A stretch of 41,651 nucleotides of DNA from positions 1 through 41,651 of IMG/VR virus record IMGVR_UViG_3300007611_000283; one strand, 5' to 3'. A program made the position numbers and the translations under genes. Shown here piece after piece: positions 2,738 through 36,939 of the stretch. A model generated the notes under the pieces. The model made no database searches. It worked only from the letters and a program-made list of their open reading frames with translations, and was not told the origin of the DNA. This DNA is from a virus. Position 1 is the first letter of the stretch, and each line of letters begins with the position of its first letter.

Positions 2738-2745
2738 TATTTATT
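2738..2745 (-). promoter_or_regulatory. T4-late-like promoter octamer AATAAATA
   Basis: On the minus strand the octamer AATAAATA is followed by five T residues and then the ATG at 2732. In T4 the octamer TATAAATA occupies about -13 to -6, so +1 would be the A of the start codon. The same octamer-N5-ATG geometry occurs before the 4494 and 10325 genes. Confidence 0.55.
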
Positions 2746-4480: not shown

Positions 4481-4508
4481 GATAAATATTGTTATGGAAA
4501 ACAATATT
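4481..4508 (+). promoter_or_regulatory. Late-type promoter inside a start-codon hairpin
   Basis: GATAAATA (4481-4488) lies 5 bases before the ATG at 4494, so the expected +1 is the start codon. The same segment forms a perfect 9-bp inverted repeat: AATATTGTT at 4485-4493 pairs with AACAATATT at 4500-4508, and the hexaloop ATGGAA holds the start codon. RNA read through from upstream would carry the hairpin. RNA started at the octamer would lack its 5' arm. Confidence 0.55.
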
Positions 4509-5327
4509 GATCAAGCACTAGATGCGCTCAAGCAGGCTCTCAAAGAGGGTCCGGACGCCGAAGCAAAAGACGCAAGTCTTAAATTCGGCGGCAAGGTTTT
4601 TAACAAAGGTTTACTTTGGGTAGGTACTGGAAATACCAAGCAGTTGGTATTACAAGACGGGCCCGATAGAGTATTTTCATCCGAACATATTGATCTTGCC
4701 AAAGATCGGCACTTGAGCATTAACAAAGTCCCTGTGCTTGATCAGACACAACTGGGTGCAAGTGTTGTTAAGTCTAGTCTCAAAGAAGTAGGCACACTTA
4801 AAGGTCTTAACATAGACGGCGGTTTGCGTGTTAATCAATACATGGTGTTTGATCATCACACAGATAGGCTGGGTCTAGGCACAGAAGAGCCCAATGCCGC
4901 ACTCAGTGTTGCTGAAGACGGCATTGAAGTTGTCATAGGAACTGAAGATTTTACATCCGGCGTTGTTGGCACTTTCGCCAGCCACGATCTGCATATTAAA
5001 ACAGACAACACAACAAGAATTTCTGTTGGTGCAGGCGGAGATGTCGAAATTGGCAATCGAAACAATTCGCCAATACAGGCTTCTGTTCACGGAAGTCTCA
5101 GTGTCGGTGTTAACAATCCAGATCCCGGCGTGGATCTGCATGTTAGAGGCAACATCAAATTTGCCAATCGCACACACATGGTAGACTCGCAACCGCCACA
5201 GGGCGGTTCTTGGAATCAAGGCGACATTGTTTGGAACCAAAGTCCCGAGCAGAGAAAGCATGTAGGTTGGGTTTGCACTAAAGCAGGAAACCCCGGCGTT
5301 TGGAATCCTTTCGGCGAGATCCACTAA
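4494..5327 (+). CDS. Tail-fibre-like structural protein
   Basis: A 277-residue protein with the glycine-, asparagine- and valine-rich beta-repeat composition of phage fibres. It has the motif LGLGTEEPNAALSV (about residues 123-136) and the related SVGVNNPDPGVDLHVRG (about 202-218); such repeats are common in fibre shafts. The C-terminus (GDIVWNQSPEQRKHVGWVC...GVWNPFGEI) resembles a small tip or receptor-binding domain. The N-terminus is helical. The gene ends directly against a glycosyltransferase-like gene at 5328. Its start lies in the hairpin described above. A virion fibre or whisker role is inferred from composition. Confidence 0.65.
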   Translation: MENNIDQALDALKQALKEGPDAEAKDASLKFGGKVFNKGLLWVGTGNTKQLVLQDGPDRVFSSEHIDLAKDRHLSINKVPVLDQTQLGASVVKSSLKEVGTLKGLNIDGGLRVNQYMVFDHHTDRLGLGTEEPNAALSVAEDGIEVVIGTEDFTSGVVGTFASHDLHIKTDNTTRISVGAGGDVEIGNRNNSPIQASVHGSLSVGVNNPDPGVDLHVRGNIKFANRTHMVDSQPPQGGSWNQGDIVWNQSPEQRKHVGWVCTKAGNPGVWNPFGEIH

Positions 5328-10305: not shown

Positions 10306-10320
10306 ATATTTAATAAATAT
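10306..10320. promoter_or_regulatory. Palindromic divergent late-type promoter region
   Basis: The segment reads ATATTTA-A-TAAATAT, so a late-type octamer appears on both strands. On the plus strand AATAAATA (10312-10319) lies 5 bases before the sodC ATG at 10325. On the minus strand TTAAATA serves the SAP-like gene through a leader with a strong Shine-Dalgarno. One palindrome could serve two divergent late genes. Confidence 0.5.
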
Positions 10321-10324
10321 TTGC

Positions 10325-10870
10325 ATGAGAATAAAAGAAATGAGCAACTGCCCTAGAACACGTGCTAAAAAATGTCAGTGCGAAAGCGTACAGAACATTG
10401 TCGAAGACAAAAATAGAATTACTGCATCTTGCGAGCTAGAACACAGCGAGACAGTAAAAGGCAGAATTGTTCTCATGCAGGAAGGAAACGGTCCCACGCT
10501 CATACGTGGGCAAATTTCAGGGTTAGGCCCGGGCGAACACGGTTTTCACATTCACGAATTCGGCGATCTAAGCAACGGTTGTGAGAGTGCAGGCGGACAC
10601 TACAATCCAGACGGTGTAGATCACGGTGACGTAGACGAAGGACATGTCGGTGATCTAGGCAATGTTACAGCAGACGAAAACGGATTTGCTGATTTCTTAA
10701 TCGAAGCACCTAGAGTTGCTTTGGCCGGAGAAAGAAGTGTAGTAGGCAGAGCAATCGTAATACACGAAGATGAAGACGACCTTGGCAAGGGCGGCGATAG
10801 CGAAAGCCTTAAAACTGGTAATGCGGGCGACAGGCTTGCGTGTGGTGTAATTGTACTGCACGAAAACTAA
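10325..10870 (+). CDS. sodC: Cu/Zn superoxide dismutase
   Basis: The enzyme dismutates superoxide to peroxide and oxygen. All active-site residues of the family are present in the 181-residue product: copper ligands His75 and His77 (GFHIHEFG), bridging His92 (GGHYNP), zinc ligands His100, His107 and Asp110 (EGHVGDLGN), copper ligand His147, the disulfide pair Cys86-Cys173 and the substrate-guiding Arg170 (GDRLACG). The first 25 residues are basic and contain three cysteines but no hydrophobic signal peptide, unlike most bacterial SodC, which is periplasmic. The enzyme may therefore act in the cytoplasm or virion. An alternative ATG lies five codons in (10340). The promoter octamer sits 5 bases before the first ATG. 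Confidence 0.92.
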   Translation: MRIKEMSNCPRTRAKKCQCESVQNIVEDKNRITASCELEHSETVKGRIVLMQEGNGPTLIRGQISGLGPGEHGFHIHEFGDLSNGCESAGGHYNPDGVDHGDVDEGHVGDLGNVTADENGFADFLIEAPRVALAGERSVVGRAIVIHEDEDDLGKGGDSESLKTGNAGDRLACGVIVLHEN

Positions 10871-14200: not shown

Positions 14201-17200
14201 GTAGGCAGTTCATTACCTGCAGGCATCGAAGAAGGCAAAGAGTATTATGTTTTACCGGGAGAAATAACTCCTAATACCTTTAGAATAGAGGAATTGCCTG
14301 GCACTGGTGTAGGAGTTGAAACTACTAGCCCAGGGAGCGGAACCTTAAAATATCAAGTAAAATATGAAGTACTAATGCCAGGTAACAGATCAATGTTATC
14401 TAATGACTTTACTCAGGTAAACGACATGGGTTTTGGTCTATTGGCAACAAACGGCGGCTTAACCGAAGCCGTTTCCATGTTTACATACTATAACTTTGCT
14501 TCTTATTATGCATTGAACGGAGCTCAAATACGTTCAGTAGGCGGCTCGTCTGCACACGGTGTATATGGCCTAGTTGCAGCAGGGTCTGATCCTTTAGAAG
14601 TTCCTACCCCTACTGATCCGTACTACGATTTTGCACAAAGAGTAATATGCAAAGCGTCTCCTGCATCTTTCGCTAACGAACAGGAAGGGTTAAGTGTGTT
14701 TGTAGAGGGATATGATTATACACCTCTAGAAAACGGCGAGTTAGAAGTTGATCATAGTAATTTTATTGTTAGATATCCTGTTACATCTGTCAGCACAGAT
14801 GGTCTACCCGAAGGCGTAGCGCGATTAAATCTATCAAGCGACTCTACAGGAAATTTTGAAGGATTATTTCAGTCCATTCCAGATGGCACTAAAATGTCCT
14901 ACAGGGTAAAATCAACACTTGTTCTAACCGGACAGTTAGAAGATGTAGCTGTACGTCCTTCTACTGGACTTGTGCTGAATGAAACTCCAGAAGTGTATCG
15001 TGTATTGCAATTTAGTGCATATTCAAATGAAGTAGACGAAGAATTCGAAATCGAAGTAGTGACAACAGGAAACCCCGGCGAACTAAGTGTTTTAACCGAG
15101 ATTACCGAAATTGCTTCGGATTCTAGTTTTGAGTATTTTATTACCGCCAATAATCATAGGCTTAGAATCGGAGATACATTTGTTCCAACAACTTCTAGTA
15201 ATGGTTTACTAGAAGGCGTTACTTATTTTGTTGTAGAAGTTCCTAATTATAATGAGTTTGTCCTAAGTACACTAGAAGCCGGAGATCCGCCGCCTGCAGG
15301 TACTTTTACGACCGGAAATGTATCAGTCAAAGGGGTGCGTCCTCATAAATTGATTAACGGGTATACCATTGCCTTTAACACCACTGGAAGTCTACCAACC
15401 GGCTTAGGTCCTGAAGAATATTTTGTAATAGAAGATGGTTTAACAGACACCGTTTTTCAAATTTCTGAATCAAAGAACGGAAATCCTGTAGAAATAACAG
15501 ATACAGGCTCTGGTGTTCATACATATTTCCAAACGGGTCTTACTAAAACTACAACACGCGAAAATTACAATTATAATGATATGACGCTGTTTCAACCGCA
15601 GTTGCCTGCTACACCACCGCAAGAGGTAACTATTTCTATTGGAGCAAGTGCAACATTTACAACAGCAGAGCCGCACGGCTTACAATCCCAGGATGTAATT
15701 AGATTTTTTACCACTGGCGAATTACCAACACCTGTAACTATAGGACAAAACTTTTTCGTACAAAATATAATAAGCCCAACCGAATTTCAAGTTTCGGCTG
15801 TCTATCCGATAATTGGCGTGGTTGCATTAGACACATCTGGCACACAATCAGGAACACACAGTTTCAGCAAGGTGCAAGGTAGCGCAGGAGACAGAGAATT
15901 TGCAGTGGTTCCGGTGGCGCCGCAAGATCGCAGTCGTATACCCGGGTCTAAATTTGTTTTTAAGGGCGAAGAATACATTATTAATGAATACGTGTCGGAA
16001 GGCGACTTAAGCGAACCATATGCTATTCTAAGATTGAATAGAGATTTGGTAGATAGTATTGTTTCTTATACAAGCAGTTATACAATTCAAAGTGCTGTCC
16101 CTGTTAGAGATCAAAGAGCTTTAGGAACGTTAACGGTAAGAATTGCGCTAACTCGTGTTACTTCGCATGATTTGCTCGAAATTGGAACTGGCTCTTATGC
16201 CGACACAAACTATCCAAACGAAATATTCGGTGACAGCGTAAATGCACCGGACGAATCTAATGAAGTAGTCGAAAGAGATGTTGGTCGTGTGTTTTTTGTC
16301 ACCACAGATCAATTTGGTAACTTTAAAGTTGGTCCTTATTTCAAGGTCGACCAAGGAACAGGTTCGGTTACATTTGCGGCAAGCATTGCCCTTTCTAACT
16401 TAGACGGTCTTGGTTTTAAACGTGGCGTGCCTATTTCAGAATTTTCTGTAGACGCGACTTTTGCAGATAATGCGGTTGATACGGTTCCTACAGAAAATGC
16501 TACCAGGGTATATATTGAAAGACGGTTAGGAATCTCTCACGGTGGAGCAGTTGTTCCTTCGGGTTCTTTAATTCCTTCTGAAACAGGAGGTTTTATGGCG
16601 CTTGACGGCCAGTTAGCCATGAAAAATACCATGAGCCTGGGCGATAACAAAATTGCAGATTTAGCTGATCCTACTAATCCGCAAGATGCAGTAAATCTAC
16701 GAAGTGTTACTTTTGCTAATCTACAAGATTTCGACATTACTAACATTCAAGCAAATCAAATTTTAACATTTACCGGAGTAGGCAACGAAGCAGTTAATGT
16801 TGACGTAGTAGGCGACGTATCTTTTAACTTGGAATCTACAGCGAACACCTTAGATGTTCAAATTGTTCCTGATACTATCATCGATACTGACGTTAAACTG
16901 CCTACAAACAATACAGAATTTGAAGCTGATGGAATTCTACAAAGCAAATTGAACATGAATCTAGCGCAAACGCTAGAGGAGGCTGAATCAGGAGATCTAC
17001 AAACCATTCAGTCTACGCTCGGTGTCGCAAGTTTTAATGATGCAGAATTTGTTTCTACGGACGGTTGGATTGAATTAAAAGACAACGGAATTGTTACAAC
17101 CAAGATTGAACAAATCAATGCCAAGCATGTGATAGCTAATCCTTCTGTGACTATTGACAATGTTATTGCAGTATCGTATGAAGATGTTATAAACGATGGC

Positions 17201-27157: not shown

Positions 27158-27940
27158 ATGCTATGTGATTACGGTTGCGGAAAATCTGCTAAATTTCAAT
27201 TCAAGAATAAAAAATGGTGCTGTGCGCATAGATTTGACAGATGCCCTGCTATAATAAAGAAACGGGTAGAAACAAGAAAGGCCAAAGGCTGGAAACATTC
27301 TGAGGAATCAAAAGAAAAAATTAGTAGTAAGTCTAAAGGCAGAAAGTTATCCAAAGAGTGGAAACAAAAAATAAGTAAAAGCAATAAAGGGAAAACATAT
27401 GGACCTATGACCGAAAGCCATAAACAAAATTTATCTGCTTCATTAAAAGGAAAAATTCCTTGGAATAAAGGATTAACATCTGAAGATCCTCGAGTAGCTT
27501 CGTATGCAGATAAACAGACAGGTCAGAAAAGATCTGGTAATTATTTTTCGCCAGATAAGTGGAAAGGATCCGGCAATTATTGGTTTGGAAAGGATAGAAG
27601 TAAAGATAACAGTCCTAGATATAATGGAGAGGACTATAACAGAAAATTATTAGATTACAGAAATAAAGTAGCTTGGTTAACAGAAAAAACATATACTCAA
27701 TATAAGAGCATTATTAATCCTGAGAATAAACCTAGAAAACTGGCAGGAGAAGATAAAGGATTTCACTTAGATCATATATATCCTGTATCCAAAGGATTTG
27801 ATAATAATATTCCACCAGATATAGTAGCAGGTGTTGATAATTTAAGATTAATAGACTGGCGTGAAAATGTTCTAAAAGGTAATGAAATTTTAGAAGACTT
27901 AATTCCGTCATCAATTAAAAAATACTTAAGAGATAGTTGA
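27158..27940 (+). CDS. HNH homing endonuclease with NUMOD3 repeats
   Basis: A 260-residue, lysine-rich protein. Order of parts: a zinc-finger-like N-terminus (Cys3, Cys7, Cys21/22, His24); NUMOD3-type DNA-binding repeats at about residues 46-105 (HSEESKEKISSKSKG, SKEWKQKISKSNKGK, SHKQNLSASLKGK); and a C-terminal HNH domain with HLDHIYPVSKGF (His206), GVDNLRLID (Asn228) and WRENVLKGN (Asn237). Such free-standing genes spread by cutting alleles that lack them. The gene is visibly more A/T-rich than its neighbours and sits between the clamp loader and the broken ferredoxin gene. A CTAAATAA late-type motif and an AAGGAG precede the ATG. Confidence 0.88.
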   Translation: MLCDYGCGKSAKFQFKNKKWCCAHRFDRCPAIIKKRVETRKAKGWKHSEESKEKISSKSKGRKLSKEWKQKISKSNKGKTYGPMTESHKQNLSASLKGKIPWNKGLTSEDPRVASYADKQTGQKRSGNYFSPDKWKGSGNYWFGKDRSKDNSPRYNGEDYNRKLLDYRNKVAWLTEKTYTQYKSIINPENKPRKLAGEDKGFHLDHIYPVSKGFDNNIPPDIVAGVDNLRLIDWRENVLKGNEILEDLIPSSIKKYLRDS

Positions 27941-31753: not shown

Positions 31754-31982
31754 CACAAGAATTTGGGTTGTTAATTCAGATACACTAGAAAATTTTTTAG
31801 AAGAGTTCGAGGAAGCTAACGGAAATCGTGCCTTTGTTGCGCTGTCTATTAAAGACTACGAAAATCTTGCACTAAATGTATCTGAACTGCGTAGATATAT
31901 TGAACAACAGGGCGAAATAATCATATATTATGAAAATGCTGTGACTGAGAATAACACTTCCGAAAATACAGACGAACAGTAA
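31572..31982 (+). CDS. Outer-membrane spanin lipoprotein (Rz1-like), long form
   Basis: This gene starts inside the Rz-like gene in the +1 frame, the embedded arrangement typical of spanin pairs. The 136-residue product has a lipoprotein signal (LSKLLAASLITVFLTGC) with Cys27 as the lipid-modified residue, then a proline-rich stretch (SLIPKPEPEVQVV, PTVERPKPAQ). Unlike the short Rz1 of lambda (about 40 mature residues), it continues for about 75 residues of predicted helix (LENFLEEFEEANGNRAF) and extends well beyond the end of Rz. The extra domain might bridge the periplasm or interact with Rz. Confidence 0.82.
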   Translation: MEQQQISGVNLSKLLAASLITVFLTGCSLIPKPEPEVQVVTQVEKTQIPTVERPKPAQLIDTRIWVVNSDTLENFLEEFEEANGNRAFVALSIKDYENLALNVSELRRYIEQQGEIIIYYENAVTENNTSENTDEQ

Positions 31983-31988
31983 TAAATA
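31981..31988 (+). promoter_or_regulatory. Late-type promoter octamer AATAAATA
   Basis: AATAAATA at the end of the o-spanin gene predicts +1 near 31994 and a 10-base leader starting with AGGG before the ATG at 32004. It may give the two holin-like genes their own late transcript. Confidence 0.4.
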
Positions 31989-32003: not shown

Positions 32004-32285
32004 ATGTTAGAAATGATCGATAGAATGTTCGATGACACACTGTGGATATGGACTGCGATTGCAGGTTCATTAGCAGGTGCCGCTTTTCTAGCATATTTTA
32101 AAGACACGCAAGCAGGATTATGGTGCTATGCTAAACTTGACCAAACACTAGATTATCTTGTAGAACGCTTTGGGTGGTCATGGTTAAAACAACCAGAAGA
32201 TGCTTGGCGTAAACGCTATCCTAAAATAACAAAAAAAATTGATGAGCTAGAAGCTCGTTTAGCCAAACTTGAGGAGCGAAAATAA
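32004..32285 (+). CDS. Small membrane protein, holin candidate
   Basis: A 93-residue protein with one clear membrane segment (about 13-31, LWIWTAIAGSLAGAAFLAY) and a basic, helical C-terminal half (KITKKIDELEARLAKLEER) likely to be coiled coil in the cytoplasm. It sits between the spanins and the EF-hand membrane protein, so a role in lysis is likely, but no holin family is recognised. The stop overlaps the next ATG by one base (TAATG). Confidence 0.65.
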   Translation: MLEMIDRMFDDTLWIWTAIAGSLAGAAFLAYFKDTQAGLWCYAKLDQTLDYLVERFGWSWLKQPEDAWRKRYPKITKKIDELEARLAKLEERK

Positions 32286-32632
32286 TGGCAGAAGAAAAGA
32301 AAACGATTGACGCATCGGCGGTGGAAGGCGTCGACGCAAACAACGACGGGCACATATCCAAACAAGAATTAGACATGCATCTCGAATTCAAAAGAAAAGA
32401 ACTAGAAGACGAAGATGCACAGCGCGATGCTATGCGCAAAATGACATGGTTTGCACTGTTTGGCATGCTGCTATATCCTGCAATCATTCTTATTACTTCC
32501 CTTACAGGTCAGGACAAAGCTGCACAAATAATAGGTGATATAGCACCTACATATTTTGTTGCCATTGCTGGTTTAGTAGCGGCATTTTTTGGTGCTGACG
32601 CTGTAAAAGGCAAGAAAAAACAAACCAAATAA
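32285..32632 (+). CDS. EF-hand membrane protein, holin candidate
   Basis: A 115-residue protein. Residues 17-28 (DANNDGHISKQE) are a canonical EF-hand calcium loop with D, N, D, H, S and E at positions 1, 3, 5, 7, 9 and 12 and the required Gly6 and Ile8. An acidic helix follows (EFKRKELEDEDAQRDAMRK). There are two membrane segments at about 52-72 (WFALFGMLLYPAIILITSL) and 85-104 (TYFVAIAGLVAAFFGADAV), with a lysine-rich tail. The two-helix hairpin with a charged C-terminus fits a class II holin. The calcium loop would probably be cytoplasmic and could couple lysis timing to calcium entry. Confidence 0.7.
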   Translation: MAEEKKTIDASAVEGVDANNDGHISKQELDMHLEFKRKELEDEDAQRDAMRKMTWFALFGMLLYPAIILITSLTGQDKAAQIIGDIAPTYFVAIAGLVAAFFGADAVKGKKKQTK

Positions 32633-32647
32633 TCACTACTTCTAAAC

Positions 32648-32687
32648 TATAATAGTCCATGCGATAAGTAATTGTATGGACTATTAT
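32648..32687 (+). promoter_or_regulatory. Promoter-overlapping hairpin that encloses the dnaJ start codon
   Basis: ATAATAGTCCAT (32649-32660) and ATGGACTATTAT (32676-32687) are a perfect 12-bp inverted repeat with a 15-base loop. The 3' arm is the first four dnaJ codons, including the ATG. The 5' arm overlaps TATAAT (32648-32653), whose expected +1 near 32660 would exclude it. There is no good -35 box. Long transcripts from the holin genes would fold over the start; short ones would not. Confidence 0.6.
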
Positions 32688-33509
32688 TCAATCCTAGGGG
32701 TTTCTAAAAACTCCTCTCAACAGGACATAAAAAAAGCCTATAGAAGCCTTGCACACAAACATCATCCTGACAAAGGAGGAGATGCTACGAGATTTCAGCA
32801 AGTCAAAGAAGCTTATGAAGTTTTAAGCGATCCTCACAAAAAGCAAATGTATGATCACGGCGTTGACCCTAACAGGCAACAACAGGGAGGCTTTAGAAGA
32901 GGTCCTTTTGAATTTCACTTTGGCGATAATCCAGAAGATATTTTTAGTCAATTCGGATTTGGATTCGGAGGTCCGCAGAGACAAAGACGTAACAAAAGTT
33001 ATAATATAACCGTACAAATAACCCTGGAAGATGTATTAAACGGAAAAGACATCTCTGCTCAAGTGCGAGACGAAAGAGGCAATAACAGGTTAGTAAATAT
33101 ACAAGTACCGCCAGGTATCGAAGAAGGACAACAAATAAAATATGCGGGCATGGGTGACGACTCCATACCTAACATGCCACCCGGCGATCTTATAGTTAAT
33201 ATTTCTGTTGCACCACACAAATCGTTTGAAAGACGCAATAACGATTTGGTAACAGAAGTGAATGTTAGTGTCTGGGATGCTCTGTTAGGAGGCAAAGTAA
33301 AAGTCAAGACTTTAGACGGAAGAGATTTAAATATAAATGTGCCTCAAGGAACACAGCCGGGCACGGTTTTAAGTTGTAGAGAAGAGGGCCTTCCTAATGT
33401 TCGAACCAAACGCAGAGGTAATCTATTGGTAATAATAAAAATAGATATCCCCAAAAACCTCAGCAAAAAACAGAGAAAGATAATAAGCAGAATAAGAGAT
33501 GGAATTTAA
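32676..33509 (+). CDS. dnaJ: DnaJ/Hsp40 co-chaperone (type II, CbpA-like)
   Basis: A 277-residue J-protein. The J domain (1-62) begins MDYYSILGVSKNSSQQDIKK and has the essential HPD at 30-32, which stimulates Hsp70 ATPase. A glycine/phenylalanine linker follows (about 70-108). There is no zinc-finger domain. Two C-terminal substrate-binding beta domains (NITVQITLEDVLNGKD, VPPGIEEGQQIKY, VWDALLGGKVKV, LLVIIKIDIPKNLS) complete a type II protein. No phage DnaK is seen, so it should work with host DnaK. The end overlaps the deformylase gene by 11 bases. The start codon is in the hairpin described above, and no clear Shine-Dalgarno is present. Confidence 0.93.
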   Translation: MDYYSILGVSKNSSQQDIKKAYRSLAHKHHPDKGGDATRFQQVKEAYEVLSDPHKKQMYDHGVDPNRQQQGGFRRGPFEFHFGDNPEDIFSQFGFGFGGPQRQRRNKSYNITVQITLEDVLNGKDISAQVRDERGNNRLVNIQVPPGIEEGQQIKYAGMGDDSIPNMPPGDLIVNISVAPHKSFERRNNDLVTEVNVSVWDALLGGKVKVKTLDGRDLNINVPQGTQPGTVLSCREEGLPNVRTKRRGNLLVIIKIDIPKNLSKKQRKIISRIRDGI

Positions 33510-36281: not shown

Positions 36282-36939
36282 AGTAAAGCCTAAAACTACA
36301 ACCAGAAAATTTTACAATAAATGGTTGTACAAGAGCACACTTTACCTTCCCGGATGTCACGTGTTTAGGTATTATACCGTTGACCGTTTGGCAGACGAAG
36401 ATACCATAGAAACTTATTTTTCTGGTCCTTTTAAAAGACTTCCTTACTGGCCAGAAATTCGCAGTCTTACTAAACTGGCTAGGTTATTGCACACACAACA
36501 AGACGAGTGGAGCAAACGCATCGAAGGTCCTTGCATTGACATCTACACCAATTCAAAAAAGCTTTACGACAACGTTAATCTAGTGCTTGCTGCCGAGGTT
36601 AAACAACGTTTTGAACCCGAACCCGGCACAGCAGATCAACTGGACAACCCTCGAACTGTAGTTGTTAAAAAGCTACCGCATGACAGGTTCGAATACAAAG
36701 TTTTCCTTGGTGTCCACAAAGCAGATCAAACCGAAAAAGAGTCATTCATAAACTTTTTAGAAACACATTCCAAAAAAATAAAATGTACAACTGCTGTTAA
36801 GACGTGGATTAGAAGAGGCTGGCGAGATTATGATCGTCGATATATCCTAGTAGAAGACGAACCCACGCTCTTGCTCCTTAAAATGGCGCACGGAAATTTA
36901 ATAGGGCAAACCTATTCTCACGTGTTAGCCGATAAATAA
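36274..36939 (+). CDS. Unknown basic phage protein in the clpA operon
   Basis: A 221-residue basic protein with blocks such as WLYKSTLYLPGCHVFRYY, VVVKKLPHDRFEYKVFLG and AVKTWIRRGWRDYDRRYILV. There is no membrane segment and no recognised family, though the layout resembles a conserved late protein of marine myoviruses. Overlap with clpA suggests co-translation, but not a shared function. Its last codons (GATAAATAA) also form a late-type promoter octamer for the next gene. Confidence 0.65.
   Translation: MYRVKPKTTTRKFYNKWLYKSTLYLPGCHVFRYYTVDRLADEDTIETYFSGPFKRLPYWPEIRSLTKLARLLHTQQDEWSKRIEGPCIDIYTNSKKLYDNVNLVLAAEVKQRFEPEPGTADQLDNPRTVVVKKLPHDRFEYKVFLGVHKADQTEKESFINFLETHSKKIKCTTAVKTWIRRGWRDYDRRYILVEDEPTLLLLKMAHGNLIGQTYSHVLADK
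36931..36938 (+). promoter_or_regulatory. Late-type promoter octamer GATAAATA, near-leaderless
   Basis: GATAAATA ends 4 bases before the ATG at 36943, putting the expected +1 within a base of the start codon. There is no Shine-Dalgarno in between. It overlaps the last two codons and stop of the previous gene, so a chance match is possible. Confidence 0.4.

Follow-up and report, generated by a model that had tools for sequence, protein, structure and literature searches.

The dnaJ gene of an uncultured T4-like phage starts inside a predicted 17-bp RNA hairpin, the loop region of which holds a T4-type late promoter box. This element probably represents a leaderless form of the late translational switch that is typified by gene e, soc and I-TevI of T4. 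If so, promoter, translation lock and start codon are packed into a single DNA segment of ~40 bp, and translation would be confined to the RNA initiated at that promoter. Hairpin-locked late genes of T4 have been studied mainly in T4 itself and its close relatives; here, a lock with T4-like logic appears from covariation to be conserved across dozens of uncultured phages, and the locked gene encodes a chaperone, being neither a lysis gene nor an endonuclease gene.

A hairpin at the start of dnaJ

The window (the entire stretch of 41,651 nucleotides analyzed here) contains a perfect 12-bp inverted repeat, ATAATAGTCCAT (32649-32660) and ATGGACTATTAT (32676-32687), the 3' arm of which consists of codons 1-4 of dnaJ (MDYY), with the ATG as its first three bases (Table 1). 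This repeat was reported in a preliminary description of the same DNA; it is exact, and it forms the core of a larger structure. Structure prediction, which had been proposed there as a check, yields an uninterrupted RNA stem of 17 bp (32649-32665 paired with 32671-32687) that includes two G.U pairs and closes a 5-nt loop, AAGTA; the two mismatches beyond the 12-bp core turn into G.U pairs when the coding strand is folded as RNA. The folding energy of the stem is -20.5 kcal/mol on the coding strand and -13.3 kcal/mol, for a slightly longer stretch, on the opposite strand, and in the predicted fold the AUG of dnaJ is buried in the stem. Because there is no T-tract 3' of the stem, the hairpin does not qualify as an intrinsic terminator.

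Within the 41.6-kb window, this is the sole perfect 12-bp inverted repeat with a loop of 3-20 nt, and neither strand contains a second RNA stem of 14 or more pairs; 20 first-order simulated windows yielded no perfect 12-bp repeats and no 17-pair stems. Comparison of the window and five relatives with the Rfam covariance models gave no match at the gathering score, and no exact copy of the hairpin element was found in bacterial and archaeal genomes.

Table 1. Features at and upstream of the dnaJ start in the window
Feature	Position	Strand	Basis or remark
Late box AATAAATA, 15 nt upstream of the ATG of a 93-aa ORF at 32004	31981..31988	+	Possible source of dnaJ read-through
Upstream gene, 115-aa predicted membrane protein	32285..32632	+	Homologue adjoins the tape-measure gene in HTVC008M
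TAATCACTACT, stop codon of the upstream gene and conserved block	32630..32640	+	Mostly in hairpin-bearing relatives
TATAAT, incidental complement of Tyr codons	32648..32653	+	4 of 43 relatives
Hairpin 5' arm, ATAATAGTCCATGCGAT	32649..32665	+	Pairs with 32671-32687; covariation in 42 sequences
T4-type late box GATAAGTA, -13 to -6 of the predicted +1	32663..32670	+	N5 before ATG; conserved motif
Hairpin loop AAGTA, part of the late box	32666..32670	+	AAGTA or AAATA in hairpin-bearing relatives
Hairpin 3' arm, holds the dnaJ AUG and codons 2-4	32671..32687	+	Sequence, predicted fold
Predicted late start, A of the dnaJ AUG	32676	+	From the 5-nt spacing
dnaJ, 277 aa, J domain and DnaJ C-terminal domain	32676..33509	+	Pfam DnaJ, DnaJ_C

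Relatives that share the hairpin

A search with the DnaJ protein identifies loci of up to ~57% identity, all of which are without a hairpin of the window type. A pattern scan for TAGTCCAT...ATGGACTA, in contrast, detects an identical element with fixed spacing at more than 20 DnaJ genes, and further scans that disregarded the 5' arm enlarged the set to at least 43 distinct phage dnaJ loci with the same stem, the same geometry and fixed spacing; the counts of hairpin loci are lower bounds, and the first pattern scan favors perfect cores. The hairpin-bearing phages are a T4-like group from environmental sequence collections. The 15 hairpins first fetched irrespective of the 5' arm do not have the bias toward perfect cores, and all 15 keep the 8 central pairs, as Watson-Crick or G.U. 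Representative hairpin-bearing relatives encode DnaJ proteins only ~41% identical to that of the window, so that the non-coding 5' arm is conserved better than the protein.

Next to the hairpin, the TAATCA core of the TAATCAYTACT block at the upstream stop codon is present in 32 of 43 hairpin loci, compared with 2 of 44 hairpin-less ones among the loci listed, and the block shows no covariation with the hairpin loop. A pseudoknot between this block and the AAGTA loop was considered and rejected, the pairing being 148 against 147.7 in shuffled sequences, which is no gain. Similarly discarded was a mini-ORF, ATG-CGA-TAA, in the 5' arm, which is present in 18 of 43 loci, the others having CCATACG or CCGTACG.

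Selection on RNA pairing

An alignment of 42 hairpins has 92.6% of its cells paired, with two-sided changes in 4 pairs, and the covariation score exceeds those of all 500 shuffles and of every slid register; the slid registers of the alignment, by comparison, are only 28-53% paired. This is the covariation of the two arms among related phages that the preliminary description had asked for. In the core (columns 10-19), departures from Watson-Crick pairing comprise 21 G.U, no C.A and 3 others. This bias identifies RNA pairing as the conserved trait, and it favors RNA over a DNA dyad, which would have no reason to accumulate G.U on one particular strand. Individual changes follow the coding sequence: in two loci (L042 and L388), the Tyr codon TAT is replaced by TAC and the arm changes from A to G, a compensatory replacement of A-U by G-C at the wobble base, and in L166, where Tyr3 is replaced by His (MDHY), the 5' arm is matched as AGTGGTTCAT, again a compensatory change. 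The covariation and the G.U-biased pattern of change across the 42 sequences thus support the proposal, already made in the preliminary description, that selection maintains the pairing of the 5' arm with the dnaJ start. Relatives that keep the dnaJ start but are missing the arm, a finding that was to count against this proposal, do exist; where the arm is present, the covariation stands.

A predicted late promoter and leaderless start

The conserved element within the hairpin is CGATAAGTA. The loop and the adjoining bases are occupied by GATAAGTA, with exactly 5 nt between it and the ATG; this box-N5-ATG arrangement is found in the window and in at least ~80 other dnaJ genes. The late box of T4, TATAAATA, spans positions -13 to -6 (PMC2988020), and GATAAGTA resembles it, with differences in two positions. 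With a late box 5 nt from the ATG and the T4 box at -13 to -6, the predicted +1 coincides with the A of the AUG, and therefore the late dnaJ mRNA is predicted to be leaderless. No Shine-Dalgarno-like tetramer is present in any of the 87 dnaJ leaders with a late box among the loci listed.

Several observations bear on whether the box is a promoter. In the 43 hairpin-phage loci, NATAAATA is found either exactly 5 nt (28 times) or ~19-33 nt before ORF ATGs, and scrambled motifs give no spacing peak before ATGs; a single structural gene, represented by its orthologues, accounts for many of the cases at 5 nt, and when such cases are clustered over all collected loci, chance matches on unrelated contigs included, 50 clusters result. 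In the window, 4 of 8 copies of the late box are located 4-5 nt before an ATG. A search with GATAARTA-N5-ATG yields 29 matches in 14 phage records, compared with 1 for the reversed pattern. These matches include the tape-measure and tail-tube-cap genes of the cultured pelagiphage HTVC008M (L401), at annotated starts, with GATAAATA exactly 5 nt before the annotated ATGs (record positions 16007 and 19456), whereas T4 has a single match, before a 12-codon frame. The spacing peak, the window copies and the excess over the reversed pattern support the identification of GATAAGTA as a real late promoter, as far as sequence comparison can indicate. Of 11 long relatives, 5 have a gene for a late sigma factor of the gp55 family, the hairpin phage L094 among them, whereas the control genomes have none. 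Two traits of T4-like late transcription are thus seen in this phage group, namely boxes placed before starts and a gp55 family among the long relatives; in addition, the window encodes a T4 gp9/10-like protein. If leaderless late mRNAs are a feature of this phage group, the annotation of genes and start sites would be altered, and the two HTVC008M genes with the same 5-nt spacing make leaderless late starts testable in culture.

Additional [AG]ATAAATA boxes occur 4-5 nt before ATGs at 2738-2745 (minus strand), 10312-10319 and 36931-36938 of the window; the ORFs behind them, of 114-181 aa and including an SOD-like gene at 10325, are candidate leaderless late genes. At 4481-4510, where a 277-aa structural-type gene begins, GATAAATA-N5-ATG is embedded in a hairpin, AATATTGTT/AACAATATT, with the loop ATGGAA, which makes it a second candidate for a leaderless late box; a search for relatives of this gene (at 4494), with which the start hairpin could be compared, returned C-terminal matches only. 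Another late box in an inverted repeat is found in L430, where around position 1514 the palindrome GCAGATAAATATCTGC directly precedes the ATG of a gene for a 253-aa FDPLHSGH-motif protein that is nucleotidyltransferase-like by motif only.

Proposed switch and alternative explanations

The following scheme best accounts for the features of the dnaJ start. Transcripts that enter from upstream would carry the 5' arm, fold into the 17-bp hairpin and bury the AUG; with the AUG buried and no Shine-Dalgarno sequence, such read-through transcripts would yield no DnaJ. The phage late RNA polymerase, consisting of the host core and a gp55-type sigma factor, would recognize GATAAGTA and start transcription at the A of the AUG, and the resulting mRNA, having no leader, could not form the hairpin and would be translated from its 5'-terminal AUG, on the assumption that the host can translate leaderless mRNAs. 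The hairpin, its conservation as RNA, the late motif, its constant 5-nt distance from the ATG and the lack of a Shine-Dalgarno sequence are read from the sequences, and what we infer in this scheme is the promoter activity, the exact start site, the silencing of the long transcript and the timing of expression. In the folding model at 20 C, the openness of the first 12 coding nt of the window gene is 0.01 in the long RNA versus 0.50 in the leaderless one, and the respective medians for 42 loci are 0.02 and 0.59. Upstream, the closest candidate promoter (31981) also belongs to the late type, and scans with consensus promoters detect about as many sites as in shuffled sequences.

The preliminary description considered the TATAAT hexamer (32648-32653) to be the promoter, with a start near 32660 in the 5' arm, which would leave a leader of 16 nt. 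The hexamer does exist and shares bases with the 5' arm, most of which would likewise be missing from a transcript that begins near 32660. However, the hexamer occurs at this place in only 4 of 43 relatives, the listed promoter-scan output contains no -35 match for it, and the hexamer is a by-product of the arm because pairing to the Tyr codons forces it, whereas GATAAGTA-N5-ATG is retained even in arm-less relatives. A promoter at the hexamer is accordingly very unlikely; the likeness to e, soc and 49 that was drawn there persists in that a box lies inside a hairpin that buries the start, with the promoter reassigned to GATAAGTA (32663-32670) and the predicted +1, from the spacing of the late box, moved to 32676. 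Under a different reading, the palindrome would be a DNA operator or binding site over the late promoter and RNA pairing would be irrelevant. The palindrome does overlap the promoter, and operators that overlap late promoters are known for I-TevI of T4 (PMC2988022), but neither the exclusive bias of the core toward G.U over C.A nor the compensatory changes that track dnaJ codons would be expected of an operator, which makes this reading quite improbable.

The alternatives that concern the RNA itself differ in what the hairpin would do. That it is an RNA thermometer, melting with heat and inducing dnaJ translation, is suggested by the nature of the gene, a chaperone, and by the occluded AUG, and a thermosensor was the second possibility raised in the preliminary description. 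In the folding model, however, the AUG stays more than 99% paired across 4-50 C, in a stem of about -20 kcal/mol that contains no mismatch, and there is no Shine-Dalgarno sequence to expose; because the stem is too stable, a simple thermosensor is unsupported and seems extremely improbable. Alternatively, silencing of translation might be a secondary effect and the hairpin might mainly insulate, process or stabilize RNA; it could, for instance, be cut by RNase III or protect the 3' end of the mRNA from the upstream lysis region. A true intrinsic terminator is located at the same place in sister phages (see below), so that insulation from upstream transcription may be a shared function; nevertheless, the window hairpin is no such terminator, its 3' arm is anchored at the AUG, and it is exactly the loop that holds the late box. 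We consider a mainly insulating or processing role unlikely.

Comparison with known systems

In T4, the genes e, soc and 49 (and, as reported, 25, 26 and 39) have an inhibitory hairpin at the start region, with late promoters in its 5' strand (PMC3014915; PMC2988022). The dnaJ element resembles those of e, soc and 49 in that the start is sequestered by a hairpin, the 5' strand would be missing from late transcripts and the phages are T4-like. Of the traits that characterize the e/soc/I-TevI switch, sequestration of the AUG by an RNA helix is indicated by the predicted fold and the covariation in 42 sequences, and a late box that would exclude the 5' strand from late transcripts is recognizable at the motif level. 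The differences are that in dnaJ, unlike e, soc and 49, the box is in the loop and only 5 nt from the AUG, and that the late mRNAs of e and I-TevI keep a leader with a Shine-Dalgarno sequence, whereas the dnaJ mRNA has no such sequence and is predicted to be leaderless. No gene e is reported among the cyanophages examined in PMC3014915.

For the homing endonuclease genes I-TevI, I-TevII, I-TevIII and segB and for mobE of Aeh1, early or middle read-through transcripts are silenced by a hairpin, with a late promoter immediately upstream (PMC2988022). Those hairpins sequester a ribosome-binding site with a Shine-Dalgarno sequence, whereas the window hairpin sequesters the AUG itself, and, unlike in those systems, there is no intron or endonuclease at the dnaJ site. 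Elsewhere in the window (27158-27940), a NUMOD3 motif protein, probably a homing endonuclease, is encoded.

Among phage J-domain proteins, Rki of the T4-related phage RB43 is toxic to E. coli through DnaK when expressed alone, has an early promoter and cannot replace DnaJ (PMC3486835). The window protein is likewise a phage-encoded J-domain protein but, unlike Rki, combines the J domain with the DnaJ C-terminal domain. The toxicity of Rki suggests a reason for the tight control of a phage dnaJ.

Other dnaJ leaders in related phages

About half of the dnaJ genes with a late box, among the loci listed, lack a hairpin (L334, L337, L339 and others), and thus the arrangement can do without it. In the DnaJ tree, for which only the labels HP and LL were used, types with and without the hairpin are intermingled, and the window, despite its hairpin, falls within the sister group; repeated loss or exchange of the dnaJ leader is likely.

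In the sister group (L001, L003, L004, L252-L322; 41 loci), dnaJ is preceded by an intrinsic terminator the loop of which holds a -35 element, TTGACA; in most of these leaders, a TATAAT-like box lies 5-9 nt upstream of the ATG, and a late-type box, [GT]TAAATA, is located 2-3 nt before the terminator stem, so that a late start would fall within the 5' arm of the terminator. By sequence, this leader is a compact overlap of terminator, early promoter and late promoter. TTAAATA is also found 22-31 nt before other starts in the sister phages. The sister-group leaders resemble that of the window in that they belong to the same gene and have a promoter whose -10 box immediately precedes the ATG, together with a hairpin that parts dnaJ from upstream transcription; they differ in that their hairpin (L001, L003, L252 and others) is a terminator with TTGACA in the loop, which the window hairpin is not. 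The chances seem evenly balanced for a broader picture in which a large group of uncultured T4-like phages uses leaderless late mRNAs generally, with late boxes 5 nt ahead of the start codons, dnaJ adds a hairpin with the promoter in its loop, and the sister phages evolved an equivalent lock from a terminator that overlaps a promoter.

Two more leader types are found at dnaJ. In six loci (L318, L323, L326, L327, L328 and L331), a Shine-Dalgarno sequence, AAGGAGG, lies inside a GGATT...GATCC hairpin with a TAAATA-type box upstream, which is a separate solution for this gene. In L263 and L297, a different hairpin, with the arms CTAAGGTGCT...AGCACCTTAG in L263, pairs with codons ~5-8, and its loop encloses both a late-type box and the AUG.
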